Origin: Lagopus muta
Taxonomy: Eukaryota > Chordata > Aves > Galliformes > Phasianidae
Length of the DNA: 64,000 nt
NCBI RefSeq assembly: GCF_023343835.1
Contig: NC_064472.1
Span: forward strand, 44,339,799-44,403,798
Direction of reading: 5' to 3'
Positions 13,595 to 36,539 of this stretch are shown here, one piece after another. Numbering within the stretch: the stretch's first letter is position 1; the number at the start of each line of letters is the position of its first letter. Under the pieces are notes generated by a model. That model worked only from the letters and a program-made list of their open reading frames with translations. It was not told the DNA's origin and did not search any database. Made by a program: the position numbers and the translations under genes.

Positions 13595-13719
13595 TAATTA
13601 AACTTTGCTTTTGCTATTTTGCAGGGTTGGCTTGTCGGTGATTCTTCTCTGTCATTAACCCAGCTGAACTGGCGTGTTGAAAAATAGCAATTTTTATTTA
13701 TTTATCTATTTTCTTGCAG

Positions 13720-13819: not shown

Positions 13820-13847
13820 GTAAGCATTATCTACTGAGCAGTATTTG

Positions 13848-14322: not shown

Positions 14323-14535
14323 TCTCATTAAACTTCATAGTTTCACAGTGTCTCACCAGTTCAGTTATTATGTATTTGCTTTGCTTAACTTTGGGGAAAA
14401 ACAAAAAGCCAAAAAAATCACCCATCTTCCTTTTCTAGTTCAACCAAATGCATTGCAGAACTTCAGTTAAGCCTGTGCAGATTTCTTAGGGATCTAAACT
14501 TGAAATCTAGGCAAAACATTTGTTTTAATGGCTAG

Positions 14536-14690
14536 GACGCCCAATGGTGATTTCCAGCGGGATGCAGTCGATGAACACAATGCACCAGGTGTATCAGATT
14601 GTGAAGCCCATCAATCCAAACTTCTGCTTCCTGCAGTGCACCAGTGCCTACCCGCTTCAGCCTGAGGACGTCAATCTCCGTGTTATATCG
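14536..14690 (+). pseudogene. NANS duplicate, exon 4
   Basis: Encodes RPMVISSGMQSMNTM onward to LRVIS. GCTAG acceptor, ATCG|GTCAGT donor. Identical to 42277-42431. Confidence 0.88.
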
Positions 14691-15464
14691 GTCAGTGAAT
14701 AAGTAAGAGTGCTATTGGCACAGTACCACAGAAGGCCTGTGCACTTCCATTGCGCTCTGTTTCCAGGTCTTACACATGCTCGAGTTTGTCTCTGAGAGGT
14801 GGGAAAGTGCATCACGGTCCTCTAATTCCACCTGGCCTTGAAGTAAAACTATTAACTGGGTCCTGTTGTGGCAGAGCTGAGCTTTCAGGAATACGATAGG
14901 AGAGATTGCTTTAGGGGCTATGCAGTTAAATAGAAGGGAGCTGAAGGTGAGCGTGAGCTTTGAAAAGGAGAGAAAAGGATGTGGACGGTTACCTCACCTC
15001 TGGGAGGGTGTGTGGAACTGAGGACGTGATTCTCAGTTGGGAGCTCAACCGCATAATTCCATTAAAAAGGCTCTGTGTGAGTATCAGAGCCGTGAGAGAA
15101 AATGGATTATAGTTTCCTTTGAAATTATTGCTTGGATGTGCCTGGTGGCCGATGCAGGAAAATGTTCCCAGGTCGGCCAGCATTCAAACATCTGCCCAGC
15201 TTTATGCACGCAGTGTTTGTTAGCTTGAGTATATCTGGACGTGACTGTATTTAACTGCCTGTAGGACTGAATAACTCCTGTGTTGCTGCGGAAAGGATTG
15301 CTTCAGATTTGAAACATGGGAAGGTGCACCATCTGCTTTGAACGCAGGTTAAGCTTAACAAGGTGTTGGGTTCTTGGATGAAAAAAACTCCATTTGCACA
15401 ACTTACAGCTGGGTGGGCTTTTAAGACCTTGAAGAGCACAAATAAATTAGAAAGACATGGTTGA

Positions 15465-15572
15465 AGGAAGGGATGCCATGCAGAGGGACCTCGAGAGGCT
15501 ACAAAGGCGGACCTGGTGAGGTTCAACACGGCAAAGTGCAAAGTTTTGCACTTGGGCTGGAGGAATCCTAGG
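15465..15572 (+). mobile_element. CR1-like fragment in the duplicated intron 4
   Basis: GCAGAGGGACCTCGAGAGGCT...GGTGAGGTTCAACACGGCAAAGTGCAAAG resembles the CR1 ORF2 segment LDRLE...[13 protein letters not shown]. Counterpart at 43206-43313. Confidence 0.65.
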
Positions 15573-15724
15573 CATCCTAGGCATGCTTCATCCTGAGCAT
15601 AACCAACAGCTTGTTTTGTGGCACAGAAACTGCCCGCGTGTTCACTGCAGTTATTACTGTTAAATTGGCTCTGTCTTTGAAATTGCTGCCTTGGCAACTG
15701 AGACCAACTCTGTCGTGGTTCCAG

Positions 15725-15991
15725 GCGTATCAGTCAGCTTTTCCCGACATCCCCATTGGCTATTCAGGGCACGAAACCGGCATTGCCATTTCGGTGGCAG
15801 CTGTTGCTCTGGGTGCAAAAGTGGTGGAGCGTCACGTGACTCTCGACAAAACATGGAAAGGAAGTGACCACCAGGCTTCCCTGGAGCCAAAGGAACTGGC
15901 AGAGCTGGTGAAAGCCATCCGTACTGTGGAAAGAGCAATGGGTTCTCCAATCAAACAGCTCTTGCCTTGTGAAATGGCTTGCAATGAAAAG
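15725..15991 (+). pseudogene. NANS duplicate, exon 5
   Basis: Encodes AYQSAFPDIPIGYSGHETG to CEMACNEK, 89 codons, identical to 43466-43732. It carries the GYSGHETG motif with the metal-site histidine. Confidence 0.9.
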
Positions 15992-16573
15992 GTAACTCCT
16001 GCTTTTGATTCGCAGTCTGTAACTCCCGTGCAGAAAAACAGCAGCCAGTGCTTGGGTTTGTGGTGTGAAGGTCTCCGTTTTTGTGCAGTGCTTTGCCTCT
16101 GCACTCTAATAAATTTTCCACTGCAAAGGAGCAGAGCACTTATTACACTGCGCTTATTGCACTGTAACTTTAAGGCAGATCTGCATTTCTTATCATGTGC
16201 CATTTCTGTCAGTTTTAAGTTCAGTGGAGTTTTATGGATGTCCCCTGTGACTAACTCCCCTGAGCAGTAAATACGTGTGAATGCACAAGCTCTGTTTACA
16301 TGAAGCTAGAACGCTCATCAGTCTACTCAGATTCCTTCCGTTCTGATTCTGGGAAATGCCAGTGAGATATTGTCTGAATTCAGTAAGGACTTAAGTTTTC
16401 CCATCAGCCTTGTTACAGTAAACATTTCCATACTAACTCAAGCTTCTTGTAGAGTTATAAGTTAAGCAACAGGTTGGGCAACCCTTTCTCAGGTGGCTTA
16501 TAATTTTGTGGTCCACTTCTGGTGCCTACAATTCTGTTTGACTTAGATGTTGTTTTTATTTTCTCCTTTGTAG

Positions 16574-16783
16574 CTGGGGAAGTCTGTTGTGGCAAAAGTG
16601 ACCATTCCCGAAGGAACCGTACTGACACTTGACATGCTGACAGTGAAAGTAGGAGAGCCTAAGGGATTTGCTCCAGAAGCCATCTTTGATCTGGTGGGCC
16701 AGAAGGCCAAGACAACAATTGAAGAAGATGAAACCATCACTGAGCAGGCAGTGGAAAATCATGTCAAGAAAGTGAAGTGCTAA
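16574..16783 (+). pseudogene. NANS duplicate, exon 6
   Basis: Encodes the C-terminal antifreeze-like (SAF) domain, from LGKSVVAKVTIPEG to the TAA stop. Identical to 44331-44540. Confidence 0.9.
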
Positions 16784-17548
16784 ACCTAAGCCCTCCATTT
16801 GATATTTTATGGTGTCGGTCTGTCCTACTGCACAACATGTTCTAGTGACATGGTGGGTTAGAAAGGATTGAAGAAGATGAACGTTTTCAGGGTTTGTTCT
16901 GCAGGAAGTTTTCGCAACTAGGGGATATAAATTATGAAAAGCAATTTTATTAGAAACTGCATAGTACTGTGTCTAGAAAACACCATGTTCCTCCTCTTCC
17001 ATTCCACTTTGATTACTTTGGATTTCTTGCCAAATCTGTGACCGAGGTCTACTGTTTTCTAGCTTTCCTTTTCTGATAAGAATACACTAATCCTAAAAAT
17101 CTGTCTGTACTTGTTCTGTTACTGTAAAGTCTCTCTTCTGCCATTTGCTTTAATACCATGAATATAGGATGCAAGTTCGTGTTAAATTCAAAGAGAAAAA
17201 TTACCTAAACTAAACAGACAGCTTCATACATGCAGTATGACAGATTCCTCTTAAGATATGTCTTTTAAAAAAAAGTCTCAAGTTAAAGGAACGTGTGGCA
17301 GGAACCTGCTTGAGGAATAGAAGTGGACAAACTCACAGAAGTGCAGCAGTATAGAGAAGGGAGATAATTGTCTATTCCTGTGATGCCACTCTTTCAAAAG
17401 CCAGCTCCTTGAGGAAAGCTAGGTTCCAGTATGCACTTACCTTCTCAAAAGCAGTACCAACAAAGTCAGCGAACTAGATATGTAGACAGCTCCCATTTAA
17501 GGAGCTAGAAAAGGAGCCTTTTTGTACTTTTTATAAGCTGAAAGGCAC

Positions 17549-18397
17549 GCCAGCTACGTGATGCCGTGCCTGCACCAGTTTTGCTTTGGCTGCATCCAGC
17601 GGTGGGCTGAGAGCAGGCCCACGTGCCCCCTCTGCAAACGCAGGGTGCAGTCCATCTTGCACTCCGTGCGTGCGGACGACAACTTTGAAGAGTTTGTCGT
17701 CGGACAGCAGGAGAGGGCCAGAAGAGCAGCCCACCACACAACACCATTAGAAGGCCTAACAGGGGCGGTGCCCACCTGGCCGTCCGTTTCCCGCCTGACT
17801 CCAGCTGTGCTCCGGCCCCTGCTGCCCTGGCTGCACCAGGAGCTGAGTCGGCTCTTTGGGTCTGACCACAGGGCAGCCTCTGCAGCGCAGGGCCGAGTCA
17901 TCTCTGGCCTGTGCTTCTTTGGCCTGAACCAGACAGCGCTGACTCTGTGGCTGTTCAGCTGCCTGCAGATGCGGGCCACCAGCTTTGTGCAACGGCTCGT
18001 TGCGCAAGCCGCACAGGTGTGCAACGGGCCGGTGCCACATCTGCATGCCACAAGACAGCAGGGCAGCCCCGCAGCTGCCCATGGCGCACAGACTCCCCAC
18101 GCCGGCCCACAGCCCTCCAGCAGCATCAGGGAAGACAACGTGGAGGAGGAGCTTCCTGTGCCCTCAACCGCTGCCCTTGGTGAAGGTCCCAGCCAGCCTC
18201 CATCCATCCCGGCTCCATTGCAGACCGGCCAAGCAGCAGCCCAGGAGGAGCCGGGGGAGGCAGCGCCAGGTCCCTCCGTCACCAGCAGGGCCACGCAGAG
18301 CTCACGCAGGGCGCCTCAGCGAGCTCCGAAGAGGAGGGCCCGCAACTCTGAGGCCTCTGCACCTCCTGCCAAGAGGCCACCCCGCCGGCAGCACTAG
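17549..18397 (+). pseudogene. TOPORS-like RING gene, copy A, 5'-truncated
   Basis: The frame matches copies B and C from residue 19 to the stop. The first 18 residues, with the Kozak ATG and the first two RING cysteines (C9 and C12 of the intact copies), are replaced by NANS downstream sequence. An in-frame TAA lies just upstream at 17534, and the first ATG in frame is at 17561 (residue 23). A protein from there would keep C25, H27, C30, C33, C44 and C47 but could not form the first zinc site, so E3 activity is not expected. The promoter and 5' UTR exon are also absent. Private differences from B and C include R/R for G/T after QQERA, I for T at SSSTRED, and V for G at PGPSG. The rest of the frame is open. 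Confidence 0.88.
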
Positions 18398-18455
18398 GAC
18401 ACCGCCCCAGCAGCTGGTGAGAACAGGGCCGGGCCTGCAGCTGGGGCACAGCCAA

Positions 18456-18727
18456 CAGCGGGTTGGAAGGGACCTCAAAGATCACGAATCTCCAACCCCC
18501 CCGCCACAGGCAGGGCCACCAACCTCCGCACGTAACACCGGACCAGGCTGCCCGAGGCCCCATCCAACCTGGCCTTGAACACCTCCCGGGACGGGGCATC
18601 CACAGCTTCTCTGGGCAGCCTCACCGCTCTGCCTGTGAAGAACTTCCCCCCGACATCCAACCTGAACCTTCCCTCCCTCACCTTCAGACCATTTCCCCTT
18701 GTCCTGCTGTTATCTACCCTTTCCAAG
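18456..18727 (-). mobile_element. CR1 3' end in the TOPORS-like 3' UTR (copy A)
   Basis: GGTTGGAAGGGACCTCAAAGATCACGAA begins an antisense CR1 end. The minus-strand frame reads GNGLKV, GRFRLDVGGKFFTGRAVRLPREAVDAPS, the usual C-terminal CR1 ORF2 pattern. It is the same in units B and C. Confidence 0.85.
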
Positions 18728-18737
18728 AGTTGACTGC

Positions 18738-18743
18738 AATAAA
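18738..18743 (+). other. AATAAA polyadenylation signal, copy A
   Basis: Lies 341 bp after the TOPORS-like stop, directly after the CR1-derived 3' UTR. Conserved at 26446-26451 and 34154-34159. Confidence 0.6.
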
Positions 18744-19634
18744 ATCACAGAAAAGTCCCCGTGTTGTTCCCAGTGCCTTTGTCAGCGCTGTGCACGAGGG
18801 AGGTCTGAGCTCTGCTGGGCCTGGAGGCCTCCCGTGCTGCTGTTACTGCTTCTTTACAACCTCCCTTAACACGTTGCAAAGGCAAACGCCACAGTCACAT
18901 GCAGAGGGAGGAATGGAACTTGCTCCAGTGGTAAGGCGCTTTCTGGCCACGCAGCACTCCTGGCTCCCAGACACGGTCTCCTGTTTATCCCTAGGTACAA
19001 GGGCTTATCCCTAGATAGAAGCCCGTGACAGGCACCGGGAAAATGGAAAAAAAACGAAGGGCTACTAACGGTTTGCCCCGCAACCTGGCCGGCCCTGGGC
19101 CACGTGCGCTCGGGAGAGGGGGAATGGCAGAGAGCTAGCAGATAGTTCTAACGAAGAGCAAACACAACAGCAAGGATCTCAGGAGGAGCAGTAACTTACT
19201 AAATCAACCGAGTCAAACAAAATGAGAGAGACAAGAGTACCCTAAGTACGAGTCAAACCATGAGAGTGCAAGGGCACTGCTCTTATTAAGCACTACACCT
19301 GCAAGTTACAAGCAGAATGATAACTGGGATCAAAAGTGGCAAATAACTGGCTCTAACGCATCACTGCCCCATGGCAGGAGGGCAGCCCCGCAGCTGCCCT
19401 TGGCCCAGCCGCCTCCCCAGCAGGAACTCCTGCCTCTGGCTCACAGCCCTCCTGCAGTATGGAACAGCGTAGATGAGGTCCCACCTGCAGCTTTCTCCCA
19501 CTTTTTCAGGGGGGAACTTGACAAGCATGGCTCCTCGCCTTCCAGTCTTGCACGACCTCTTTCCCTTCGTGACTCAACAACCACGGGGCCTGGCCCCACA
19601 CACCTGCTGAGGCGAGGGCCTCTCAATCGGCTTC

Positions 19635-19865
19635 ATGGCAGAATCATGACAAAATTAAGGCTGGAGAAGAACTCAAAGCCAGTCAACCGCAGGAGGTCAG
19701 CTCATCCTCACCATGCCCGCTGAACCTCGTCTCTAAGTGCCACACCTACGTGCTGCTTGATCTCCTCCAGGGACACTGATTCCATCACTTCCCCACGCAG
19801 CCCATTCTAGCGCCTCATCACTCTTTCCGATAAGAAATTCTTCCCCTACGCACCTCTTCATAATT
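19635..19865 (-). mobile_element. CR1 LINE fragment (unit B)
   Basis: GGCAGAATCATGACAAAATTAAGGCTGGAGAAGAACTC is a CR1-type tail, followed by the CACGTGCTGCTTGATCTCCTCCAGGGAC region in antisense. The same fragment is at 27343-27573. Confidence 0.65.
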
Positions 19866-22282
19866 TTCTCTGTCCTTCGCTATCAGCGATGGTGGAAGGT
19901 CTGCAAATCCTGATGTAGTACATCTAACTGAAACATTAACAAAGAATATAGTACTCCTTTCATGGAATAATTTCCTGCTGACTTCCTTACAATACAACGA
20001 TGAAATAGCTGCCTTTTCTTTCTTTGAGTTCTAGCTTTGTAGAATCATTGAAGGACCACATCCTCATTTTAAAAAAAATGTAAACTTTGAGCATGTTCTT
20101 TCTTTTCTTGCTCAACATAATTTCTATCAGAGCTGGAGGGCCAGGATTGCCATTGATCATTACCATCTCACTGCTGATAGCCACCAATGTGTTTTGGCTG
20201 TTGGCTGTCGCTCCAGGTAAATTAACATTCAGATATCTGATTGGAATACTTTCCCTTCTTTCCTGAATTTTGCCTATTATTAGGCCAGAAATTAGGGCCA
20301 GAAAAGTCTGGTTCTCATTCTACATGGGGATCATCCTTCTTAAGGAGCCCACCATATATTTGATAGGAGCTGACGATGAGCTCTGAAATATCTGTAGGGC
20401 TTCACAAGTATAGGAGCTGTTATAAATCCCTGACTATGCACTGTTCACCATCTCTTCTAGCTCACAGATGCTGACTTGGAGCAAATAGAACAGAATAGAA
20501 CGAGAGGAGCTGGAGTTGTTGTCCACTATGCCTTGTGATCTGTTGGAGAAAAGCAACTGGATCCAGATTCCAGATGTGCCTCTCACAGCGGAGTGGAAGG
20601 CAAATTGGTGAGGACTTTTGGCTAAAATATACAAACAGGCTGGGAAAGATCCAGGGTTGAGTTATGACAGCCCACAGATTGCAGTGATGAGGCAGGTCTG
20701 AGGGATTTCAGCCTATGGGCCAGAGTCTCAGCACTCCTACAGTGCCACTGGGCACTGAAACAGGGCTACAGGGCCCTGACACTAAGTATTTCTAAGCTTC
20801 TTACTGTTTTTTTGTGTCACGCCAGACCTTCTGCGCCACGTACTTTTCAAACACCGCTCTGACAAGAGATATCTTCATTTCACTTACGTGAAATGCTCTT
20901 GCACGTGCCTTTCAGAAGAGCATGGAGGATTTTTAAACCAATAGTTTACTTTCACACGCCTCTTGCCTAAATGAGAATTATTCCTCCCCTCTCTGCCCTT
21001 CATTTACAGGCTGTGTATTTCTCCCTGCTGTGTTTTGCAAGGTAGAACTGAAGTATGGTGAGATAGGAGTGAAAAGTGTCAAATTTATTCCCAAAGTCTG
21101 TTTAGAATTGTCAAAGACCAGGTATGTTTTATAATCACTGTGTTAATTCAGCACACTTCTCCTGCTGATTTGTAGCTGCATGAATTCAGCACTTCCATGA
21201 AATAAACTGTAATATCCGATAGCACACCGACATAAAATGAGGAATCCAAAGTGGTAATCACATGTGAAGAGCCTCTGTTAGTAATTTGCCCAGCATCACC
21301 CAGCAAATCTGCAGCAAAGGCTGGGGAAATCAGCACTGACACCATTTATGGACCATCTTTTCTTTTCCACAAGGCCTTGATCACTCAGCCTCTCACCTTT
21401 CAAAACACGCTGACATAAGCACCTAAAGACAGTCATCTCCACTGCGTCTGGTACAACCAGGGCAAATGTTCCTCTCAGGGAGGGGAGTATAAGTATGTCT
21501 TGCTGACCGTTCATTCTGTAATAAGTATGGTAAGAAAGAGGTATGGAAAGAGGCAAAAATATCAACTGGAAAAACAAAATCAGCACCCCTTATCTTCAGA
21601 GTTTTTTACAGCCCTAATTGTGCGCTTTGTGTCATAGCCCTTGTCATGCGCACTGTCAAACTGGAAAGCGGTGTCTCCCACTGATATGCATAGGGATGGA
21701 ACTTCTACACCTCTGCTCCATCAGCACAGGAAGTAACTGAAGGAGGAGCAGACAGCTGTGCTGAAGGAAGGAGAAAATACACCGATGGCACATCTCTGGC
21801 TAGACCCAAGATCGGTTTGATATGTGTTCCGGTGTGTCACACACAGTTTCCTACTGTGACTTTTTAGGGAAAAAATGGGAGGTAGAACAAAAAAAAAAAA
21901 AACAAAAAAACAAAGGAGAAGGGAGGAAAAAATAATAAGGAGCGCTTAGCAGCATCAGTGCTGTATCCTTCATCTCTCTCCTGCCTTTTTCTCATGCAGA
22001 CTCCTTACTTTCACTCCCATTTCTCTCACTTTAGCCATCCCATTACAGAAGAGCACTTTGCTATTCATGACTCCTCAGCTGCAGTTTCCAGCAGCCTTTC
22101 TCATGGACCCACTCCTTTCACTTAGCCTCCAGCTCCCACTGGTTCCCCTGTCCCACACCCTTCCATTCAGCTTCTTGGGCTTCTCAGCTCTTTGTCTCTT
22201 CCCCGCTCTCCCTAGTCCAGCGATCCAATGTCAGCCAGTTTCTCTCTTTATTCTCATTTATTCTCATTCATTCTCATTTTTC
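19866..22282. other. Tandem unit interior, no gene recognised
   Basis: AT-rich filler with small open frames that show no family resemblance. Contains an A-rich tract at about 21889-21914. Mirrored at 27574-29990. Confidence 0.6.
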
Positions 22283-22497
22283 CCATCAGGGGGAAGTTCT
22301 TTACTATGTGAGTGGTGAGGTGCTGCCCAGAGAGGTTGTGGATGCCTGGAGGTGTTCAAGGCCGGGTTGGATGGGGCCCCGGGCAGCCTGGTCTGGTATT
22401 AAATGGGGAGGTTGGTGGCCCTGCATGTGGCAGGGGGTTGAAGGTTCGTGGTCCTTGAGGTCCCTTCTAACCCAGGCCATTCTATGATCCTGTGAGT
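22283..22497 (+). mobile_element. CR1 3' end, sense (unit B)
   Basis: GAAGTTCTTTACTATGTGAGTGG, GAGGTGCTGCCCAGAGAGGTTGTGGATGCC, GGTGTTCAAGGCC, then CCCTTCTAACCC and CCATTCTATGATCCTGTGA. This is a typical CR1 sense 3' end. Confidence 0.85.
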
Positions 22498-23980
22498 CTG
22501 AAGTTCAGATGCTCTGCTGTAATAAAAACTATCTGCAGGAAAAAAAAAATTCTTGTTGTCACCACAAGCAGATTATTTCTGTAAGGAGAACTCAGAACAC
22601 CTACTGAACTTTGAGGAAAGAACAGGGGCTCCGGACCACAAGGCACGTTGCTTAGTTGCAGTAATACTTGCTCATGAGCAAGTGCTGTAGGGAAAAGTAA
22701 AACCCCATGAGAAGCAGTATTTTAGAGGTTTGCTTTAAGAAATGCTTCTTAACAAACTGCTTTTTCAATCAGCTAATTTTTGTGGGGAACTTTGTAAATC
22801 TCCACTTCCATGTACATTCTGTGCTAATGCTGCACTCACAGGTTGTTTTGTACAGCCAGTAATGAGCGTGAGGCAGCTTAGTAAATGGCTGGTTAACAGC
22901 TACAGCCATGAAATCCACCAGCCTACGCTACGGCTTGATCACCACACAACTCCTCAAGAAGGCAATGCACTATTCCGTTTGCAATGGGCAGGGGGCGGTA
23001 GGTGGTGCTAGATGTGCGTAGGAAAGGCCTTGGAAATGCCATTCAGCTTCACCCTGCAAGAAACACATGCACCACAAAATCATAATAAATGCCATGTAAG
23101 CCTTCGGTTCCATGAGAGCTTCACAGAGAGGCCCACAGTGTGTCTGGATGTCTGCTACAGGATGTTTCTGGAGTAAAACAGCCTCAGAGGCAGCCTTTGT
23201 CCAAGCACTGAGGTTGACATTGTTTCTCTGGCGCCTCGGTGTGGCCACTTGGAGGCACGGACTCAGGAGAGGTAGCTAAAGAGGAAGCGTACAAAAGCAC
23301 AGGACTATGACACGGATATTCAGGCCTTTGGAGACAGCAAACTGTATCCACGAATTTATTTCTAAGGAGAAAATTGTGTCTTTTTTTCCCGTTCCTGTCA
23401 GTTTTCTAAACCATTCTCTTACCACGGTGATGGCGGTCTTCTTCTTTCTTGAACCTCTTGAGATTCCTGGTATGTTTTTGCATTTGTGTAGGATGAAAGT
23501 AAATAAACATAATCTGTATTTCTTTGATGCTGTCACAGAAAATCTAAATGTTAAAAACCAAGCTGCATGACCAACCAAAATATCACAACCTAAGTTTCTC
23601 CGGAAGACAGAATTTCCATACAGCATTAATACATCACAATTAGATGGATCACAAGGGGAAAGCAAGCAACACCATCATGAGCAGACCATCTTCCAAGCAG
23701 AAATGCCTTAGCTTTCCAAACTGTGTGCTCTTCTTCTTAATAAAATAAAATATTAGTAATAATATGAAGAAGAAAATTTATCTTCTGTCCTACTTCCTGT
23801 GAACAGGAATGGGGTTGTCCTCCTACAGAGTCAGAACTTGCAGCAGCAGAGCTGTTGACTGCAGTGCCATGTTTTCTTTCGTCAGGATTCAGAAACTTGT
23901 CTGGCATTCTCACTGCCTCATTACCAAGTTTAACCACCAGAAGTTCACTGGTGTGGCCTATTTTCTTTGCTAAGAGCATC
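22498..23980. other. Tandem unit interior, no gene recognised
   Basis: No coding region or RNA gene that I can support. Mirrored at 30206-31688. Confidence 0.6.
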
Positions 23981-24408
23981 ACAGAATCACAGAATAGTAG
24001 GGGTTGGAAGGGACCTCTAGAGATCATCGAGTCCAACCCCCCTGCCAAAGCAGGTTCCCTACACCGGGCCGCACAGGTAGGCATCCAGGTGAGACTTGAA
24101 CATCTCCAGAGAAGGAGACTCCACAACCCCCCTGGGCAGCCTGTTCCAGTGCTCCGTCACCCTCACTGTAAAGAAGTTCTTGCGCACATTTGTGCGGAAC
24201 TTCCTATGCTGCAGCTTGTGTCCATTTCCCCTTGTCCTGTCTCCACGTACCACTGAAAAGAGACTGGCCTCACCACTATGGCCCCCACACCTCAGATATT
24301 TATAAACCTGGATTAGATCCCCTCTCAGTCGTCCTTTCTCAAGGCTGAATAGACCCAGTTCACTCAGCCTTTCTGCATAGCGGAGATGCTCCAGGCCCTT
24401 CACCATCA
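23981..24408 (-). mobile_element. CR1 LINE fragment (unit B)
   Basis: TCACAGAATCACAGAATAGTAGGGGTTGG tail. The minus-strand frame reads [21 protein letters not shown] and [22 protein letters not shown] to [19 protein letters not shown], an open CR1 ORF2 C-terminus. Copy at 31689-32116. Confidence 0.93.
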
Positions 24409-25202
24409 ACCAGCAGTGCTGGCTTGTGGGGAGAGTCAGTGAGGCCCGTGTCCTGTTGCCTCAGGAAGAGGCAAAACATGGGTTTTGTTGAAGGCACCCC
24501 AGTGCTGAACGGATCCAGAGATTTGTCACGACTGGGGCGACGTGGGAAGACTCAATCAAAGCCCCAGACACTGCTGCAAAATGCCAACAGCGAGCAGACA
24601 CAATATAGGGAACGGAACGGACAGAGGCACCACGGAAAACCCGGATGCCATTGCTGGGGTTGGAGCGCTGCAGATGACGCTCGCCCGTTGTGACATCACT
24701 GGCACCGACGCCCTGCGTGAGGGATAGTGACACACGCAGCAGGGATTGTGACCTCTTGGCCCTCACTGCCTGTAGCCGGGCACAGAGTCTCTCACTCTGG
24801 CTTGTGCCTGCACTCCAGCCGAGCGTGTCCGTGAGGCTTGGAGCGAGCAGCAAGGATAGCCTTGGTGCTGGTCTCGTGCTCTGGGAGCTGCCGACAGCCG
24901 CTCTCAGTGCTCGTCCCCAGAGCCACCACAGCTTCTTCCCCGCCCTGCCTGGCTCAGGCAGCCGGGGCACCCAGGAGGCCGCAGCAGCAAAGGGAACCGG
25001 TAAGGGGACGCCTCAGCCTGGGCAGCCCACTGGGAGGGTTTCCTTCCTGAGGGACCCGGGCACTCGTTCCTCCGCTGACGGGGTCAGCGAGTGACCGTGG
25101 CCTCTCTTCCTTTCCTAGCGTGACCCCTGCAGCTGCAGCAGCGCGGTGAGGAGCAGCCCCTCATCCCCTTTGCTCTCGTACCCACCACAGCAGCTGGACA
25201 GC
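24409..25202 (+). promoter_or_regulatory. TOPORS-like copy B promoter and 5' UTR
   Basis: GC-rich sequence between the CR1 fragment and the ATG. A CRE-like TGACATCA lies at 24691-24698. A putative 5' UTR exon ends at GGAACCG|GTAAGG (donor GT 25000-25001), and a pyrimidine-rich acceptor TTTCCTAG precedes 25119, giving a 119-bp leader intron (25000-25118). The promoter position is inferred; the splice sites are seen but not proven. Confidence 0.5.
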
Positions 25203-26105
25203 ATGGCCACCGAGCTGGACCGTCGCTGCCCCATCTGCCTGGACACCATGGATGACGCCAGCTACGTGATGCCGTGCCTGCACCAGTTTTGCTTTGGCTG
25301 CATCCAGCGGTGGGCTGAGAGCAGGCCCACGTGCCCCCTCTGCAAACGCAGGGTGCAGTCCATCTTGCACTCCGTGCGTGCGGACGACAACTTTGAAGAG
25401 TTTGTCGTCGGACAGCAGGAGAGGGCCGGAACAGCAGCCCACCACACAACACCATTAGAAGGCCTAACAGGGGCGGTGCCCACCTGGCCGTCCGTTTCCC
25501 GCCTGACTCCAGCTGTGCTCCGGCCCCTGCTGCCCTGGCTGCACCAGGAGCTGAGTCGGCTCTTTGGGTCTGACCACAGGGCAGCCTCTGCAGCGCAGGG
25601 CCGAGTCATCTCTGGCCTGTGCTTCTTTGGCCTGAACCAGACAGCGCTGACTCTGTGGCTGTTCAGCTGCCTGCAGATGCGGGCCACCAGCTTTGTGCAA
25701 CGGCTCGTTGCGCAAGCCGCACAGGTGTGCAACGGGCCGGTGCCACATCTGCATGCCACAAGACAGCAGGGCAGCCCTGCAGCTGCCCATGGCGCACAGA
25801 CTCCCCACGCCGGCCCACAGCCCTCCAGCAGCACCAGGGAAGACAACGTGGAGGAGGAGCTTCCTGTGCCCTCAACCGCTGCCCTTGGTGAAGGTCCCAG
25901 CCAGCCTCCATCCATCCCGGCTCCATTGCAGACCGGCCAAGCAGCAGCCCAGGAGGAGCCGGGGGAGGCAGCGCCAGGTCCCTCCGGCACCAGCAGGGCC
26001 ACGCAGAGCTCACGCAGGGCGCCTCAGCGAGCTCCGAAGAGGAGGGCCCGCAACTCTGAGGCCTCTGCACCTCCTGCCAAGAGGCCACCCCGCCGGCAGC
26101 ACTAG
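25203..26105 (+). CDS. TOPORS-like RING E3 ligase, copy B
   Basis: Intronless 300-aa reading frame with a C3HC4 RING at residues 9-47: CPIC, then C25, H27, C30, C33, C44 and C47 (CPLC). The block continuing QSILHSVRADDNFEEFVV is the TOPORS signature, where the human protein has a closely similar HSVRAEDDF block. TOPORS is a nuclear ubiquitin/SUMO E3 ligase that binds topoisomerase I and p53. This protein is far shorter than true TOPORS (about 1000 aa), keeping the RING plus a helical region (about 80-170) and a proline/alanine-rich tail. The tail ends in basic clusters (APKRRAR, AKRPPRR) that look like a nuclear localisation signal. The start is set at 25203 by context (GACAGCATGG) just before the RING; the longer upstream frame has no ATG. 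One of three tandem copies. The exact ortholog name is not known to me; E3 activity is inferred from the complete zinc ligands. Confidence 0.85.
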   Translation: MATELDRRCPICLDTMDDASYVMPCLHQFCFGCIQRWAESRPTCPLCKRRVQSILHSVRADDNFEEFVVGQQERAGTAAHHTTPLEGLTGAVPTWPSVSRLTPAVLRPLLPWLHQELSRLFGSDHRAASAAQGRVISGLCFFGLNQTALTLWLFSCLQMRATSFVQRLVAQAAQVCNGPVPHLHATRQQGSPAAAHGAQTPHAGPQPSSSTREDNVEEELPVPSTAALGEGPSQPPSIPAPLQTGQAAAQEEPGEAAPGPSGTSRATQSSRRAPQRAPKRRARNSEASAPPAKRPPRRQH

Positions 26106-26163
26106 GACACCGCCCCAGCAGCTGGCGAGAACAGGGCCGGGCCTGCAGCTGGGGCACAGCCAA

Positions 26164-26435
26164 CAGCGGGTTGGAAGGGACCTCAAAGATCACGAATCTC
26201 CAACCCCCCCGCCACAGGCAGGGCCACCAACCTCCGCACGTAACACCGGACCAGGCTGCCCGAGGCCCCATCCAACCTGGCCTTGAACACCTCCCGGGAC
26301 GGGGCATCCACAGCTTCTCTGGGCAGCCTCACCGCTCTGCCTGTGAAGAACTTCCCCCCGACATCCAACCTGAACCTTCCCTCCCTCACCTTCAGACCAT
26401 TTCCCCTTGTCCTGCTGTTATCTACCCTTTCCAAG
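26164..26435 (-). mobile_element. CR1 3' end in the TOPORS-like 3' UTR (copy B)
   Basis: Same insertion as at 18456-18727, shared by all three units and so older than the tandem duplication. Confidence 0.85.
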
Positions 26436-26445
26436 AGTTGACTGC

Positions 26446-26451
26446 AATAAA
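26446..26451 (+). other. AATAAA polyadenylation signal, copy B
   Basis: 341 bp after the copy B stop codon, at the end of the CR1-derived 3' UTR. Confidence 0.65.
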
Positions 26452-27342
26452 ATCACAGAAAAGTCCCCGTGTTGTTCCCAGTGCCTTTGTCAGCGCTGTG
26501 CACGAGGGAGGTCTGAGCTCTGCTGGGCCTGGAGGCCTCCCGTGCTGCTGTTACTGCTTCTTTACAACCTCCCTTAACACGTTGCAAAGGCAAACGCCAC
26601 AGTCACATGCAGAGGGAGGAATGGAACTTGCTCCAGTGGTAAGGCGCTTTCTGGCCACGCAGCACTCCTGGCTCCCAGACACGGTCTCCTGTTTATCCCT
26701 AGGTACAAGGGCTTATCCCTAGATAGAAGCCCGTGACAGGCACCGGGAAAATGGAAAAAAAACGAAGGGCTACTAACGGTTTGCCCCGCAACCTGGCCGG
26801 CCCTGGGCCACGTGCGCTCGGGAGAGGGGGAATGGCAGAGAGCTAGCAGATAGTTCTAACGAAGAGCAAACACAACAGCAAGGATCTCAGGAGGAGCAGT
26901 AACTTACTAAATCAACCGAGTCAAACAAAATGAGAGAGACAAGAGTACCCTAAGTACGAGTCAAACCATGAGAGTGCAAGGGCACTGCTCTTATTAAGCA
27001 CTACACCTGCAAGTTACAAGCAGAATGATAACTGGGATCAAAAGTGGCAAATAACTGGCTCTAACGCATCACTGCCCCATGGCAGGAGGGCAGCCCCGCA
27101 GCTGCCCTTGGCCCAGCCGCCTCCCCAGCAGGAACTCCTGCCTCTGGCTCACAGCCCTCCTGCAGTATGGAACAGCGTAGATGAGGTCCCACCTGCAGCT
27201 TTCTCCCACTTTTTCAGGGGGGAACTTGACAAGCATGGCTCCTCGCCTTCCAGTCTTGCACGACCTCTTTCCCTTCGTGACTCAACAACCACGGGGCCTG
27301 GCCCCACACACCTGCTGAGGCGAGGGCCTCTCAATCGGCTTC

Positions 27343-27573
27343 ATGGCAGAATCATGACAAAATTAAGGCTGGAGAAGAACTCAAAGCCAGTCAACCGCAG
27401 GAGGTCAGCTCATCCTCACCATGCCCGCTGAACCTCGTCTCTAAGTGCCACACCTACGTGCTGCTTGATCTCCTCCAGGGACACTGATTCCATCACTTCC
27501 CCACGCAGCCCATTCTAGCGCCTCATCACTCTTTCCGATAAGAAATTCTTCCCCTACGCACCTCTTCATAATT
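27343..27573 (-). mobile_element. CR1 LINE fragment (unit C)
   Basis: Tandem copy of 19635-19865. Confidence 0.65.
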
Positions 27574-29990
27574 TTCTCTGTCCTTCGCTATCAGCGATGG
27601 TGGAAGGTCTGCAAATCCTGATGTAGTACATCTAACTGAAACATTAACAAAGAATATAGTACTCCTTTCATGGAATAATTTCCTGCTGACTTCCTTACAA
27701 TACAACGATGAAATAGCTGCCTTTTCTTTCTTTGAGTTCTAGCTTTGTAGAATCATTGAAGGACCACATCCTCATTTTAAAAAAAATGTAAACTTTGAGC
27801 ATGTTCTTTCTTTTCTTGCTCAACATAATTTCTATCAGAGCTGGAGGGCCAGGATTGCCATTGATCATTACCATCTCACTGCTGATAGCCACCAATGTGT
27901 TTTGGCTGTTGGCTGTCGCTCCAGGTAAATTAACATTCAGATATCTGATTGGAATACTTTCCCTTCTTTCCTGAATTTTGCCTATTATTAGGCCAGAAAT
28001 TAGGGCCAGAAAAGTCTGGTTCTCATTCTACATGGGGATCATCCTTCTTAAGGAGCCCACCATATATTTGATAGGAGCTGACGATGAGCTCTGAAATATC
28101 TGTAGGGCTTCACAAGTATAAGAGCTGTTATAAATCCCTGACTATGCACTGTTCACCATCTCTTCTAGCTGACAGATGCTGACTTGGAGCAAATAGAACA
28201 GAATAGAACGAGAGGAGCTGGAGTTGTTGTCCACTATGCCTTGTGATCTGTTGGAGAAAAGCAACTGGATCCAGATTCCAGATGTGCCTCTCACAGCGGA
28301 GTGGAAGGCAAATTGGTGAGGACTTTTGGCTAAAATATACAAACAGGCTGGGAAAGATCCAGGGTTGAGTTATGACAGCCCACAGATTGCAGTGATGAGG
28401 CAGGTCTGAGGGATTTCAGCCTATGGGCCAGAGTCTCAGCACTCCTACAGTGCCACTGGGCACTGAAACAGGGCTACAGGGCCCTGACACTAAGTATTTC
28501 TAAGCTTCTTACTGTTTTTTTGTGTCACGCCAGACCTTCTGCGCCACGTACTTTTCAAACACCGCTCTGACAAGAGATATCTTCATTTCACTTACGTGAA
28601 ATGCTCTTGCACGTGCCTTTCAGAAGAGCATGGAGGATTTTTAAACCAATAGTTTACTTTCACACGCCTCTTGCCTAAATGAGAATTATTCCTCCCCTCT
28701 CTGCCCTTCATTTACAGGCTGTGTATTTCTCCCTGCTGTGTTTTGCAAGGTAGAACTGAAGTATGGTGAGATAGGAGTGAAAAGTGTCAAATTTATTCCC
28801 AAAGTCTGTTTAGAATTGTCAAAGACCAGGTATGTTTTATAATCACTGTGTTAATTCAGCACACTTCTCCTGCTGATTTGTAGCTGCATGAATTCAGCAC
28901 TTCCATGAAATAAACTGTAATATCCGATAGCACACCGACATAAAATGAGGAATCCAAAGTGGTAATCACATGTGAAGAGCCTCTGTTAGTAATTTGCCCA
29001 GCATCACCCAGCAAATCTGCAGCAAAGGCTGGGGAAATCAGCACTGACACCATTTATGGACCATCTTTTCTTTTCCACAAGGCCTTGATCACTCAGCCTC
29101 TCACCTTTCAAAACACGCTGACATAAGCACCTAAAGACAGTCATCTCCACTGCGTCTGGTACAACCAGGGCAAATGTTCCTCTCAGGGAGGGGAGTATAA
29201 GTATGTCTTGCTGACCGTTCATTCTGTAATAAGTATGGTAAGAAAGAGGTATGGAAAGAGGCAAAAATATCAACTGGAAAAACAAAATCAGCACCCCTTA
29301 TCTTCAGAGTTTTTTACAGCCCTAATTGTGCGCTTTGTGTCATAGCCCTTGTCATGCGCACTGTCAAACTGGAAAGCGGTGTCTCCCACTGATATGCATA
29401 GGGATGGAACTTCTACACCTCTGCTCCATCAGCACAGGAAGTAACTGAAGGAGGAGCAGACAGCTGTGCTGAAGGAAGGAGAAAATACACCGATGGCACA
29501 TCTCTGGCTAGACCCAAGATCGGTTTGATATGTGTTCCGGTGTGTCACACACAGATTCCTACTGTGACTTTTTAGGGAAAAAATGGGAGGTAGAACAAAA
29601 AAAAAAAAAACAAAAAAACAAAGGAGAAGGGAGGAAAAAATAATAAGGAGCGCTTAGCAGCATCAGTGCTGTATCCTTCATCTCTCTCCTGCCTTTTTCT
29701 CATGCAGACTCCTTACTTTCACTCCCATTTCTCTCACTTTAGCCATCCCATTACAGAAGAGCACTTTGCTATTCATGACTCCTCAGCTGCAGTTTCCAGC
29801 AGCCTTTCTCATGGACCCACTCCTTTCACTTAGCCTCCAGCTCCCACTGGTTCCCCTGTCCCACACCCTTCCATTCAGCTTCTTGGGCTTCTCAGCTCTT
29901 TGTCTCTTCCCCGCTCTCCCTAGTCCAGCGATCCAATGTCAGCCAGTTTCTCTCTTTATTCTCATTTATTCTCATTCATTCTCATTTTTC
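27574..29990. other. Tandem unit interior, no gene recognised
   Basis: Copy of 19866-22282; nothing further seen. Confidence 0.6.
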
Positions 29991-30205
29991 CCATCAGGGG
30001 GAAGTTCTTTACTATGTGAGTGGTGAGGTGCTGCCCAGAGAGGTTGTGGATGCCTGGAGGTGTTCAAGGCCGGGTTGGATGGGGCCCCGGGCAGCCTGGT
30101 CTGGTATTAAATGGGGAGGTTGGTGGCCCTGCATGTGGCAGGGGGTTGAAGGTTCGTGGTCCTTGAGGTCCCTTCTAACCCAGGCCATTCTATGATCCTG
30201 TGAGT
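29991..30205 (+). mobile_element. CR1 3' end, sense (unit C)
   Basis: Tandem copy of 22283-22497. Confidence 0.85.
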
Positions 30206-31688
30206 CTGAAGTTCAGATGCTCTGCTGTAATAAAAACTATCTGCAGGAAAAAAAAAATTCTTGTTGTCACCACAAGCAGATTATTTCTGTAAGGAGAACT
30301 CAGAACACCTACTGAACTTTGAGGAAAGAACAGGGGCTCCGGACCACAAGGCACGTTGCTTAGTTGCAGTAATACTTGCTCATGAGCAAGTGCTGTAGGG
30401 AAAAGTAAAACCCCATGAGAAGCAGTATTTTAGAGGTTTGCTTTAAGAAATGCTTCTTAACAAACTGCTTTTTCAATCAGCTAATTTTTGTGGGGAACTT
30501 TGTAAATCTCCACTTCCATGTACATTCTGTGCTAATGCTGCACTCACAGGTTGTTTTGTACAGCCAGTAATGAGCGTGAGGCAGCTTAGTAAATGGCTGG
30601 TTAACAGCTACAGCCATGAAATCCACCAGCCTACGCTACGGCTTGATCACCACACAACTCCTCAAGAAGGCAATGCACTATTCCGTTTGCAATGGGCAGG
30701 GGGCGGTAGGTGGTGCTAGATGTGCGTAGGAAAGGCCTTGGAAATGCCATTCAGCTTCACCCTGCAAGAAACACATGCACCACAAAATCATAATAAATGC
30801 CATGTAAGCCTTCGGTTCCATGAGAGCTTCACAGAGAGGCCCACAGTGTGTCTGGATGTCTGCTACAGGATGTTTCTGGAGTAAAACAGCCTCAGAGGCA
30901 GCCTTTGTCCAAGCACTGAGGTTGACATTGTTTCTCTGGCGCCTCGGTGTGGCCACTTGGAGGCACGGACTCAGGAGAGGTAGCTAAAGAGGAAGCGTAC
31001 AAAAGCACAGGACTATGACACGGATATTCAGGCCTTTGGAGACAGCAAACTGTATCCACGAATTTATTTCTAAGGAGAAAATTGTGTCTTTTTTTCCCGT
31101 TCCTGTCAGTTTTCTAAACCATTCTCTTACCACGGTGATGGCGGTCTTCTTCTTTCTTGAACCTCTTGAGATTCCTGGTATGTTTTTGCATTTGTGTAGG
31201 ATGAAAGTAAATAAACATAATCTGTATTTCTTTGATGCTGTCACAGAAAATCTAAATGTTAAAAACCAAGCTGCATGACCAACCAAAATATCACAACCTA
31301 AGTTTCTCCGGAAGACAGAATTTCCATACAGCATTAATACATCACAATTAGATGGATCACAAGGGGAAAGCAAGCAACACCATCATGAGCAGACCATCTT
31401 CCAAGCAGAAATGCCTTAGCTTTCCAAACTGTGTGCTCTTCTTCTTAATAAAATAAAATATTAGTAATAATATGAAGAAGAAAATTTATCTTCTGTCCTA
31501 CTTCCTGTGAACAGGAATGGGGTTGTCCTCCTACAGAGTCAGAACTTGCAGCAGCAGAGCTGTTGACTGCAGTGCCATGTTTTCTTTCGTCAGGATTCAG
31601 AAACTTGTCTGGCATTCTCACTGCCTCATTACCAAGTTTAACCACCAGAAGTTCACTGGTGTGGCCTATTTTCTTTGCTAAGAGCATC
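30206..31688. other. Tandem unit interior, no gene recognised
   Basis: Copy of 22498-23980; nothing further seen. Confidence 0.6.
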
Positions 31689-32116
31689 ACAGAATCACAG
31701 AATAGTAGGGGTTGGAAGGGACCTCTAGAGATCATCGAGTCCAACCCCCCTGCCAAAGCAGGTTCCCTACACCGGGCCGCACAGGTAGGCATCCAGGTGA
31801 GACTTGAACATCTCCAGAGAAGGAGACTCCACAACCCCCCTGGGCAGCCTGTTCCAGTGCTCCGTCACCCTCACTGTAAAGAAGTTCTTGCGCACATTTG
31901 TGCGGAACTTCCTATGCTGCAGCTTGTGTCCATTTCCCCTTGTCCTGTCTCCACGTACCACTGAAAAGAGACTGGCCTCACCACTATGGCCCCCACACCT
32001 CAGATATTTATAAACCTGGATTAGATCCCCTCTCAGTCGTCCTTTCTCAAGGCTGAATAGACCCAGTTCACTCAGCCTTTCTGCATAGCGGAGATGCTCC
32101 AGGCCCTTCACCATCA
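31689..32116 (-). mobile_element. CR1 LINE fragment (unit C)
   Basis: Tandem copy of 23981-24408, with the same open CR1 C-terminal frame on the minus strand. Confidence 0.93.
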
Positions 32117-32910
32117 ACCAGCAGTGCTGGCTTGTGGGGAGAGTCAGTGAGGCCCGTGTCCTGTTGCCTCAGGAAGAGGCAAAACATGGGTTTTGTTGAA
32201 GGCACCCCAGTGCTGAACGGATCCAGAGATTTGTCACGACTGGGGCGACGTGGGAAGACTCAATCAAAGCCCCAGACACTGCTGCAAAATGCCAACAGCG
32301 AGCAGACACAATATAGGGAACGGAACGGACAGAGGCACCACGGAAAACCCGGATGCCATTGCTGGGGTTGGAGCGCTGCAGATGACGCTCGCCCGTTGTG
32401 ACATCACTGGCACCGACGCCCTGCGTGAGGGATAGTGACACACGCAGCAGGGATTGTGACCTCTTGGCCCTCACTGCCTGTAGCCGGGCACAGAGTCTCT
32501 CACTCTGGCTTGTGCCTGCACTCCAGCCGAGCGTGTCCGTGAGGCTTGGAGCGAGCAGCAAGGATAGCCTTGGTGCTGGTCTCGTGCTCTGGGAGCTGCC
32601 GACAGCCGCTCTCAGTGCTCGTCCCCAGAGCCACCACAGCTTCTTCCCCGCCCTGCCTGGCTCAGGCAGCCGGGGCACCCAGGAGGCCGCAGCAGCAAAG
32701 GGAACCGGTAAGGGGACGCCTCAGCCTGGGCAGCCCACTGGGAGGGTTTCCTTCCTGAGGGACCCGGGCACTCGTTCCTCCGCTGACGGGGTCAGCGAGT
32801 GACCGTGGCCTCTCTTCCTTTCCTAGCGTGACCCCTGCAGCTGCAGCAGCGCGGTGAGGAGCAGCCCCTCATCCCCTTTGCTCTCGTACCCACCACAGCA
32901 GCTGGACAGC
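32117..32910 (+). promoter_or_regulatory. TOPORS-like copy C promoter and 5' UTR
   Basis: Copy of 24409-25202, with the CRE-like TGACATCA at 32399-32406, the leader donor at 32708-32709 and the acceptor before 32827. Confidence 0.5.
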
Positions 32911-33813
32911 ATGGCCACCGAGCTGGACCGTCGCTGCCCCATCTGCCTGGACACCATGGATGACGCCAGCTACGTGATGCCGTGCCTGCACCAGTTTTGC
33001 TTTGGCTGCATCCAGCGGTGGGCTGAGAGCAGGCCCACGTGCCCCCTCTGCAAACGCAGGGTGCAGTCCATCTTGCACTCCGTGCGTGCGGACGACAACT
33101 TTGAAGAGTTTGTCGTCGGACAGCAGGAGAGGGCCGGAACAGCAGCCCACCACACAACACCATTAGAAGGCCTAACAGGGGCGGTGCCCACCTGGCCGTC
33201 CGTTTCCCGCCTGACTCCAGCTGTGCTCCGGCCCCTGCTGCCCTGGCTGCACCAGGAGCTGAGTCGGCTCTTTGGGTCTGACCACAGGGCAGCCTCTGCA
33301 GCGCAGGGCCGAGTCATCTCTGGCCTGTGCTTCTTTGGCCTGAACCAGACAGCGCTGACTCTGTGGCTGTTCAGCTGCCTGCAGATGCGGGCCACCAGCT
33401 TTGTGCAACGGCTCGTTGCGCAAGCCGCACAGGTGTGCAACGGGCCGGTGCCACATCTGCATGCCACAAGACAGCAGGGCAGCCCCGCAGCTGCCCATGG
33501 CGCACAGACTCCCCACGCCGGCCCACAGCCCTCCAGCAGCACCAGGGAAGACAACGTGGAGGAGGAGCTTCCTGTGCCCTCAACCGCTGCCCTTGGTGAA
33601 GGTCCCAGCCAGCCTCCATCCATCCCGGCTCCATTGCGGACCGGCCAAGCAGCAGCCCAGGAGGAGCCGGGGGAGGCAGTGCCAGGTCCCTCCGGCACCA
33701 GCAGGGCCACACAGAGCTCACGCAGGGCGCCTCGGCGAGCTCCGAAGAGGAGGGCCCGCAACTCTGAGGCCTCTGCACCTCCTGCCAAGAGGCCACCCCG
33801 CCGGCAGCAGTAG
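32911..33813 (+). CDS. TOPORS-like RING E3 ligase, copy C
   Basis: Intact 300-aa frame, identical to copy B over the RING and middle region. It differs at four residues, all in the C-terminal 60: Q to R in APLQTGQ, A to V in EAAPGPS, Q to R in APQRAPK, and the last residue H to Q. All eight RING zinc ligands are present (C9, C12, C25, H27, C30, C33, C44, C47). It is the copy next to the ancestral right flank, so it may be closest to the founder locus. Promoter region, leader intron, CR1-containing 3' UTR and AATAAA (34154-34159) are retained. The role as a nuclear ubiquitin/SUMO ligase is inferred from the TOPORS-type RING only. Confidence 0.85.
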   Translation: MATELDRRCPICLDTMDDASYVMPCLHQFCFGCIQRWAESRPTCPLCKRRVQSILHSVRADDNFEEFVVGQQERAGTAAHHTTPLEGLTGAVPTWPSVSRLTPAVLRPLLPWLHQELSRLFGSDHRAASAAQGRVISGLCFFGLNQTALTLWLFSCLQMRATSFVQRLVAQAAQVCNGPVPHLHATRQQGSPAAAHGAQTPHAGPQPSSSTREDNVEEELPVPSTAALGEGPSQPPSIPAPLRTGQAAAQEEPGEAVPGPSGTSRATQSSRRAPRRAPKRRARNSEASAPPAKRPPRRQQ

Positions 33814-33871
33814 GACACCGCCCCAGCAGCTGGCGAGAACAGGGCCGGGCCTGCAGCTGGGGCACAGCCAA

Positions 33872-34143
33872 CAACGGGTTGGAAGGGACCTCAAAGATCA
33901 CGAATCTCCAACCCCCCCGCCACAGGCAGGGCCACCAACCTCCGCACGTAACACCGGACCAGGCTGCCCGAGGCCCCATCCAACCTGGCCTTGAACACCT
34001 CCCGGGACGGGGCATCCACAGCTTCTCTGGGCAGCCTCACCGCTCTGCCTGTGAAGAACTTCCCCCCGACATCCAACCTGAACCTTCCCTCCCTCACCTT
34101 CAGACCATTTCCCCTTGTCCTGCTGTTATCTACCCTTTCCAAG
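33872..34143 (-). mobile_element. CR1 3' end in the TOPORS-like 3' UTR (copy C)
   Basis: Same insertion as in units A and B. Confidence 0.85.
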
Positions 34144-34153
34144 AGTCGACTGC

Positions 34154-34159
34154 AATAAA
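34154..34159 (+). other. AATAAA polyadenylation signal, copy C
   Basis: 341 bp after the copy C stop codon. Confidence 0.65.
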
Positions 34160-34304
34160 ATCACAGAAAAGTCTCCGTGTTGTTCCCAGTGCCTTTGTCA
34201 GCGCTGTGCACGAGGGAGGTCTGAGCTCTGCTGGGCCTGGAGGCCTCCCGTGCTGCTGTTACTGCTTCTTTACAACCTCCCTTAACACGTTGCAAAGGCA
34301 AACG

Positions 34305-36539
34305 TCGACAGAGGAGGCACTGCTTCATTTCTATGCAGGGCACAAGGTGGCTCATCTCCACCAATAAACACTCCCATGTCTTTACACTGTCTTCTACTTT
34401 CAATCCCAAAGGTCTCACTCCACACCCATCACATACTGATCCCACTGATATATGACAGGCTTACAAGGTTACACAAGCGTAACTGAGTCTTCTGCACCTG
34501 CACAGAGGGTTCAGGGTCTTTGATGGTTTTTTGGGAAGGTGTCCCCCTCCTCACTTTCACCACGGTTGGGCACAGGTTTTCTGAGGTGCTCTGCTCATGA
34601 AGAAGCAAAATTGCTTGTGACGGGTTCTTGGCAATATCCAGCAGTGTATTGCAAGTAGGCCCAATAGCCATAAACAGATGAAGATTGGAACTTGTTAGTA
34701 AACTTTGAAGCTCTCCACCAGCTTGCACAAGAATCAGCCTACTACGTCGTTTGTCTTTTACTCAGTACCTGGATCTCGGCTTTCAGTTATTACATGGGTA
34801 ATGCAAAGCAGCCCTGCAAATATTCACTGGAAGAGTGAAAAATGACATTACACAGCTGGCTCCACAAAAGATGGCTGCTGTTTCATTATCTTTTATAACT
34901 GCCAATTATGCCACACCAGAGTATTTAAAATTTACAAGAGAAAGTGTAAGGCCAAGAGATTTTTCCGAGTTGTTTTGGTCATGGATTTCTTTTTTTCTTT
35001 TTTTTTTTTTTTTTCAAAGTTTGAAAGAGACATTGTAGGAAGATAGAAAGGCAAGCCATTTGTCCTGGAGGGGCAGGATTGTGAAGTAGTTAACCACGTG
35101 GATATCTCCAAACACAGGAACTCTTTACTCCGTTAATTCTTCATTTTTTCCCAAAGACACACGTTAGTATACATGGCGAAAAACAACCAAACAAACAAAC
35201 AAAAAAAACCCCCAAACCAACAACCTGTGGCTAATACAAGTAAATAAGCAATTCAGTGTTTTGCAGTTTTACCATGTGCAGTTAAGTGAAAACTGGAGGA
35301 AGGCAGAAATAGGACCGCAGTGTCTGCATGGATGCTGCCCATGTAGCATACCTTGGTCTGTTTTAGCTCCTGGCTCAAACACATCACTTCACAACTTTTT
35401 TGGAGTTAAAACACTATTGTCCAGCATGGCTAACAAACCGCTATGTGAGCAAATGCAAACAGACTGCTCCTTAGTGTGTGCTCTGACTGCTCTGTTAGTG
35501 TAACAGACCTGCACAACCTGCTTCCATTTACACAGAAACTTGCTCCTCTGGCTTAACAATCTACTTGTCTTTCCTCCTATGAGTGTTCTTTACAAATTAG
35601 TCCTCCAAAAGAGCATAACTGAAGCCATGAGCAAAATGTTATGAGGAAGTTGCAGGCAGCTCATGAGATAAGCAAAAACCTGAAAGCAAAGAAGGGTTAC
35701 GTGTGTAGCACTGCTTAACATTTCTGTAACAATCTTTCCATTTCACAATGCTGTTTAGCATGCGTCATCATAATAAGTCCAATTTGGGGTCCATTTCATT
35801 TCAAGAGGAAAGGAATTAGGAGTTCTTTACTTACAGATGCCATTTCAATGCAGTTTGTGTTATATTTATTTATTTATAATGGTCTCACCTTGCTTGTTTA
35901 TGTAATCTTAAGGCAGAGGAAGAATGCAGTTAGCTAGAACACTGTGATCCAGTCCAACTGTTTGGTTGGAAAATGTTTGCTGGGCACCTTCTTGAAAACA
36001 TGTAAAGCTTTGAAATGTTTTCCTGAGCAGAAATTGTTGTTTATACAAGGTATACTCCTACGTCAGAGAAAAACAAACATCAAAAGCACAACATGTAAGT
36101 CAGATGAAGAATCTGTAATTGGTCTGGGTTAAATACATTAAGCAGTCTTTTCCAGGGACACTTCCATCCAATCATACATGGCACAACAACCCGTGCAAAT
36201 CCACAGTATGTCAGTACAATCATCACACTTCCAGTCTGGAAAATCACCTGGGAAACAAACACCTTGTTATAAACAGAAGGCTAAGAGGATGCACTGCATC
36301 ATTTCCAGGAATTTTTGCAACCACATACCTAAATCTGATGCTTCCCTTGTTTCTGACAAGCAGTTTAAACACAAAATGAAACACCAGTATTTCGACTCAC
36401 ACTTTAATACCCATGCCACGCTGCTTGTCCCTTTGTCAAGGGCTGATAAACAAAGGGTATGGGTAGGGCAACTAGGAAACTGAGTGTATCCTTGGTGAGT
36501 TTGACATCATGTTGGGAGAAAGTGTTTGTTTGTTTGCCT
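34305..36539. other. Intergenic between TOPORS-like C and NANS
   Basis: Single-copy sequence with T-rich (34988-35014) and CAAA-rich (about 35186-35210) tracts. A short CR1-like antisense piece near 35945-36010 (GTGATCCAGTCCAACTG...GGGCACCTTCTTGAAAAC) is likely but degenerate. No gene is recognised. Confidence 0.6.

Follow-up and report, generated by a model that had tools for sequence, protein, structure and literature searches.

TOPORS is an E3 ubiquitin/SUMO ligase of about 1000 aa that carries a long Ser/Arg-rich C-terminal part. In birds, TOPORS itself is listed in quail brain lists and in duck gonad qPCR, and a chicken liver table has one row for a 'Topors-like' gene (PMC7563548), which goes no further than showing that annotations of this kind occur in a second galliform. 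In open-licence full texts, we found no account of a family of TOPORS-like genes in birds. With regard to gene arrays on avian sex chromosomes, the chicken W HINT1W array is described as 52 copies of a 5,648-bp unit (PMC9974502). The array examined here is similar in that a sex chromosome bears head-to-tail repeats of a several-kilobase unit holding a complete gene, whereas HINT1W is located on W, linked to a satellite and made of another gene, and the RING family reported here lies on a chromosome taken as Z and has neighbouring copies at 24 places. Like the testis-expressed amplicons of the chicken Z mentioned in the same paper (PMC9974502), the RING family consists of multicopy genes on Z. 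It also shows the features of Z-linked ampliconic genes, that is, multiple copies, Z location and high identity. The chicken amplicons belong to other gene families.

Organization of the 7708-bp array

The window is the whole 64-kb stretch of the rock ptarmigan assembly analysed here (C59:44339799-44403798, where C59 is the contig holding it), and positions below are those of the window unless a contig is given. Three DM-domain genes were found within 90 kb on C59, which we take to be the DMRT1/3/2 cluster on the basis of gene order and Z linkage. Because it bears this cluster, C59 was taken as the Z chromosome. The lysozyme exons of the assembly are unlike those of chicken and seem to be of the turkey/grouse type.

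The commonest repeat offset within the window was 7708 (8616 shared 24-mer pairs), followed by 27741 (1783 pairs), which corresponds to a NANS repeat; offset 15416 had 1045 pairs. BLAST aligned 17547-26602 with 25255-34311 at 99.78% identity (19 mismatches and 1 gap). Thus, the tandem repeat with a constant offset of 7708 bp that had been proposed from the sequence-only reading was confirmed, as was its division into a 1342-bp stub and two full-length units. Stub A (17547-18888, forward strand) is the 3' part of a RING gene joined to NANS sequence; units B (18889-26596) and C (26597-34304), both on the forward strand and 7708 bp long, were delimited by 24-mer offsets, BLAST and ungapped comparison. 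The last of these also placed the right edges at 18888, 26596 and 34304, where that reading had put them. The array had been called exact, but the copies carry SNVs: B and C differ at 12 of 7708 ungapped positions (3 in the 6366 bp that precede 25255 and 9 in the last 1342), A and B at 6 of 1342, and the A-C pair is about 1% diverged. The proposed recent duplication agrees with copies about 99.8% alike, and expansion of the family is likely to be ongoing, judging from this low divergence.

The frame of stub A is open and begins at approximately residue 19, so that the Cys pair forming the first two zinc ligands of the RING is missing; it also lacks the leader and the upstream region. The stub abuts a 5'-truncated NANS fragment (13403-17554, forward strand), which the earlier reading had missed; this fragment matches NANS exons 3-6 only and is 99.2% identical to 41146-45311 at an offset of 27743. 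It appears that the join to this fragment may have cut stub A. The NANS gene itself (37293-44534, forward strand) was identified by exon matches as six exons, each open, and the stops flagged in the downstream NANS matches fall in an intron part. The second NANS copy may be what is left of a 27.7-kb tandem duplication in which the RING array was included.

Other features of the window include a PRY-SPRY frame of a TRIM-like gene that adjoins NANS (48037-48612, reverse strand; Pfam SPRY, E=5.2e-21) and a reverse-transcriptase frame of 332 aa (11056-12051, forward strand; Pfam RVT_1, E=4.6e-25), presumably of a CR1 element, whose 3' part has a 96% copy at 58400-59080 (reverse strand). An ORF at 6538-7089 (reverse strand) has the look of a clathrin light chain, and a Pfam scan of it gave no match.

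Near identity of 99.8% between copies is also what would be expected if a single gene copy had been laid down two or three times during assembly, and short N runs do occur less than 10 kb beyond the ends of the window (a 67-base run to the left and three runs of 60-154 bases to the right). We consider such an artefact very unlikely. The window itself contains no N, B and C differ at 12 sites that are unevenly spread, and, according to the assembly paper, the genome was built from HiFi reads at an average of 57.75x and the source bird was female (PMC10320755). In a female, a contig with the DM-domain cluster would be a hemizygous Z, so no second allele could have been mistaken for a copy.

Gene structure and relationship to TOPORS

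The claim that B and C both hold intact 300-aa RING genes was supported by complete frames with stop codons (25203-26105 in B and 32911-33813 in C, forward strand). The protein consists of a RING (residues 9-47), a TOPORS-like second domain (residues ∼95-175) and a basic C-terminal tail. A leader (5'UTR) intron with GT..AG ends occupies 25000-25118 in gene B and, according to the aligned copies, 32708-32826 in gene C, and AATAAA is found at 26446-26451 and 34154-34159, respectively, in the aligned rows (all on the forward strand). Both elements had been predicted and are conserved: the splice sites are identical in all eight full-length copies of the near family described below, and the polyadenylation signal is present in eight of nine aligned rows, the ninth (c43572) having a gap at that stretch. 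A promoter, which had also been claimed, may be presumed from conservation of the upstream sequence, and expression of the genes is likewise presumed from conservation. A similar leader with an intron-like layout was seen upstream of three other subfamilies, the alignment being judged by eye.

Pfam identified the N-terminal C3HC4 RING (PF00097, E=1.5e-11, residues 9-47), and its Cys/His residues are present in all eight full-length near copies. We also aligned B and C with 13 of the 19 fetched family members (alignment A1), leaving out L036 and L038 because of shorter frames and L044, L045, L049 and L052 because they run off the stretch. The RING, the second domain and the basic C-terminal tail were present in all 15 rows of this short TOPORS-derived family, and the RING Cys/His, W95, L106, P108, W112, R280, K293 and R294 were invariant among them. 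Pfam scans of the long TOPORS, of the proteins of stub A, B and C and of three further members matched only RING-type families (plus weak chance rows), and no model was found for the second domain.

The genome contains a long TOPORS-like gene on the same chromosome as the array (C59:69.92 Mb; open frame of 1066 aa), which we take to be the counterpart of human TOPORS and of which the first 521 aa from a chosen start were fetched. The second domain alone aligned with this long protein by hhalign (E=2.8e-10, 82 columns, score 67.3), whereas 30 shuffles scored at most 15.3. Thus, the description as a TOPORS-type RING gene stands: as in TOPORS, the RING is followed by an SVRADDNF-type stretch and then by a second domain homologous to that of TOPORS. 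In contrast to the 1066-aa gene, the short proteins end with a stop after 300 aa, and the long C-terminal part is replaced by a short linker followed by a basic tail that is conserved. Given this difference in length, the short gene looks like a paralogue derived from TOPORS rather than TOPORS itself.

Among the structure matches listed, the solved chain most similar in sequence to the RING was PDB 1chc (E=7.9e-19), the alphaherpesvirus RING of equine herpesvirus 1, whose likeness spans residues 5-66 only; it was also the best solved relative of the long TOPORS among the matches listed. No solved TOPORS chain that could confirm the name was present among 36 structure matches, and the second domain had no solved match among the best 60 of 177, nor among the best 60 of 136.

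Because the RING has all its ligands and neighbours a TOPORS domain, the protein is most likely a nuclear E3 ubiquitin (perhaps SUMO) ligase. By homology, the RING would bind an E2, and the second domain would bind or choose partners.

A near family on the Z chromosome

The sequence-only reading had described three copies, but the family is much larger. Long DNA matches were found at nine places within 2.26 Mb (C59:43.57-45.83 Mb), namely stub A and eight full-length genes. All eight are intact, encode 294-300 aa and are identical over residues 1-66. Pooled over 28 pairs, pN/pS was 0 for residues 1-66, 0.73 for residues 67-175 and 0.63 for the remainder, and synonymous sites in residues 1-66 have diverged little (0.0225). 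Differences between near copies were 0-1.3% in the leader exon, leader intron and RING, and maximum differences elsewhere reached 3.8% in 5'UTR exon 2, 16% in residues 67-175, 5.9% in residues 176-300 and 2.9% in the 3'UTR. Since the leader intron is also nearly identical and synonymous divergence is low over residues 1-66, conversion appears to homogenize the 5' half, and identity of the RING is therefore only in part evidence of selection.

The second domain behaves differently in some copies. In codons 117-182, 34 of 198 bases are changed between C and c44787, compared with 14 of 702 elsewhere (P=1.1e-13, which is optimistic because the block was picked after viewing the alignment). The corresponding counts were lower in c45390 (6/198) and c43842 (17/198), and so the excess mostly concerns the clade of c44787, c45665 and c45832. 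Between C and c44787 both pS (0.178) and pN (0.169) are raised in this block; the raised synonymous change indicates that conversion sparing the block but homogenizing its flanks is part of the cause. Positive selection on residues 67-175 was considered and not adopted, because pN/pS is 0.73, not above 1, and mosaic history explains at least part of the pattern. As to a donor of the block in the three copies, none was found in 13 fetched loci, with L025-L027 matching at 71-75%. Upstream, 24630-24800 differs by 13-22% in comparisons involving the same clade and by 0-3% in the others; in c45665 the alignment there is only 73%, so homology ends near this point.

A single coding exon and the scattering of copies over 2.26 Mb and several chromosomes could be taken to mean that retroposition or a fixed-end transposon spread the RING copies. 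However, the leader intron is kept in all eight near copies, and the right ends of all six dispersed copies differ (34018 in c43572, and 34339, 34365, 34410, 34424 and 34571). As neither the intron loss of a retrogene nor the common ends of a transposon were observed, this origin was rejected as highly improbable.

Origin of unit B

B resembles different neighbours in its two parts. From 18889 to 25929, only 4 of 7041 sites distinguish B from C, compared with 8 of 667 from 25930 to 26596 (Fisher P=1.1e-6); over the latter interval A differs from B at 2 of 667 sites and from C at 10 of 667. By these counts, the nearest copy to B is C before 25930 and A after it, and the best-fitting switch falls at 25835-25930 (forward strand), inside the coding exon. 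Of the eight sites at which B equals A, four (25930, 26026, 26166 and 26466) show a state that, in comparison with the six dispersed copies, is absent from C and nearly all others (c45390 shares it at 25930, and c43572 has a gap at 26466). Among the remaining four, 25972 is ambiguous, whereas 26003, 26102 and 26439 look derived in C.

B thus appears to be a hybrid of A and C, produced by crossover or by conversion. A plausible course is that misaligned A and C recombined within the coding exon to give B, which would have set the 7708-bp period. Such unequal crossing-over between A and C accounts for the mosaic and would also explain why B carries A's right junction. It should be noted that the order in which the 14 variable sites fall does not reach significance by itself (6019 of 100000 shuffles were equally good), so that gene conversion of the 3' end of B or C fits nearly as well as one crossover. 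The edge at 18888, 26596 and 34304, which had been read as the boundary of the unit, probably does not mark the breakpoint of the duplication. Five of the six dispersed copies share sequence past 34304 (the sixth being c43572), and therefore C has the older flank; on the crossover reading, the flanks of A and C would already have differed at 34304.

At the gene copy c45390 (L013/L014, C59:45387211-45394469), spacer segments of the 7708-bp unit lie to the left (22908-23981) and to the right (19269-22887) of the gene, their order being circularly permuted. This suggests that head-to-tail arrangements predate the present B-C pair.

Genome-wide distribution of the family

With protein B as the query, at least 145 stretches (128 merged loci) were matched in the genome, and with a distant member on C3 at least 136 (120 merged loci); both searches score the best candidates only, and the counts are therefore lower bounds. 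At least 112 loci were common to both queries. Of the 16 loci found with the first query only, one was TOPORS itself, eleven were broken matches and four were open RING-only matches that may be other genes; stops were present in six of the eight found with the second query only. In 100 of the 112 common loci, the frame was open for at least 270 aa with no stop in the match.

The chromosomal distribution was strongly uneven, with 42 of 112 loci on Z compared with 8.2 expected by length, although one of the two queries is itself Z-linked and may favour Z loci. Because tandem copies are not independent, we also counted one-Mb clusters, of which 8 of 32 were on Z (2.35 expected, P=0.0018). At 24 places on six contigs, including the 7708-bp array, at least two loci lie no more than 12 kb apart; some partners are broken pieces, and several places have exact periods. 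Four other young arrays, whose units are 99.3-99.95% alike, were observed: L053 (C59:36.93 Mb, unit of 3805 bp), L054 (C1:64.49 Mb, 2210 bp), L030 (C17:4.49 Mb, ∼6970 bp) and L031 (C59:56.54 Mb, ∼4569 bp). The pattern suggests a Z-enriched RING family that would have been amplified repeatedly in tandem by duplication at the DNA level.

Such amplification could be neutral, a segmental-duplication hotspot copying whatever it contains while the RING copies become pseudogenes. This is compatible with the copying of a NANS piece and with the existence of degenerate copies (for example, C59:44698453 and 45612541), but we regard it as unlikely on account of the eight intact near copies with identical residues 1-66, the 100 loci with long open frames, and the fact that copies lie next to each other at 24 places spread over six contigs.

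Implications

Taken together, the observations are probably best explained by an array made by unequal exchange, within a Z-enriched and tandem-amplified family whose product is most likely a nuclear E3 ligase. The predicted protein has a RING that stays constant, a second domain of TOPORS homology that differs from copy to copy, and a basic tail that resembles an NLS. For a family amplified and enriched on Z in this way, germline expression and conflict are plausible, and the germline as the tissue is our guess. We further put forward, as a speculative and on balance rather doubtful view, that genetic conflict has shaped a family of some hundred nuclear E3 ligases, which is still multiplying and is concentrated on Z, with variants of the second domain held apart. 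The conflict might be Z-W drive, or restriction of transposons or viruses; conversion would keep the leader, intron and RING uniform, and the partner-choosing second domain would be held as distinct variants. If the genes are expressed, they would form a natural series in which one RING is paired with several partner domains, and the young arrays would be useful for measuring gene birth, unequal exchange and Z-linked selection.
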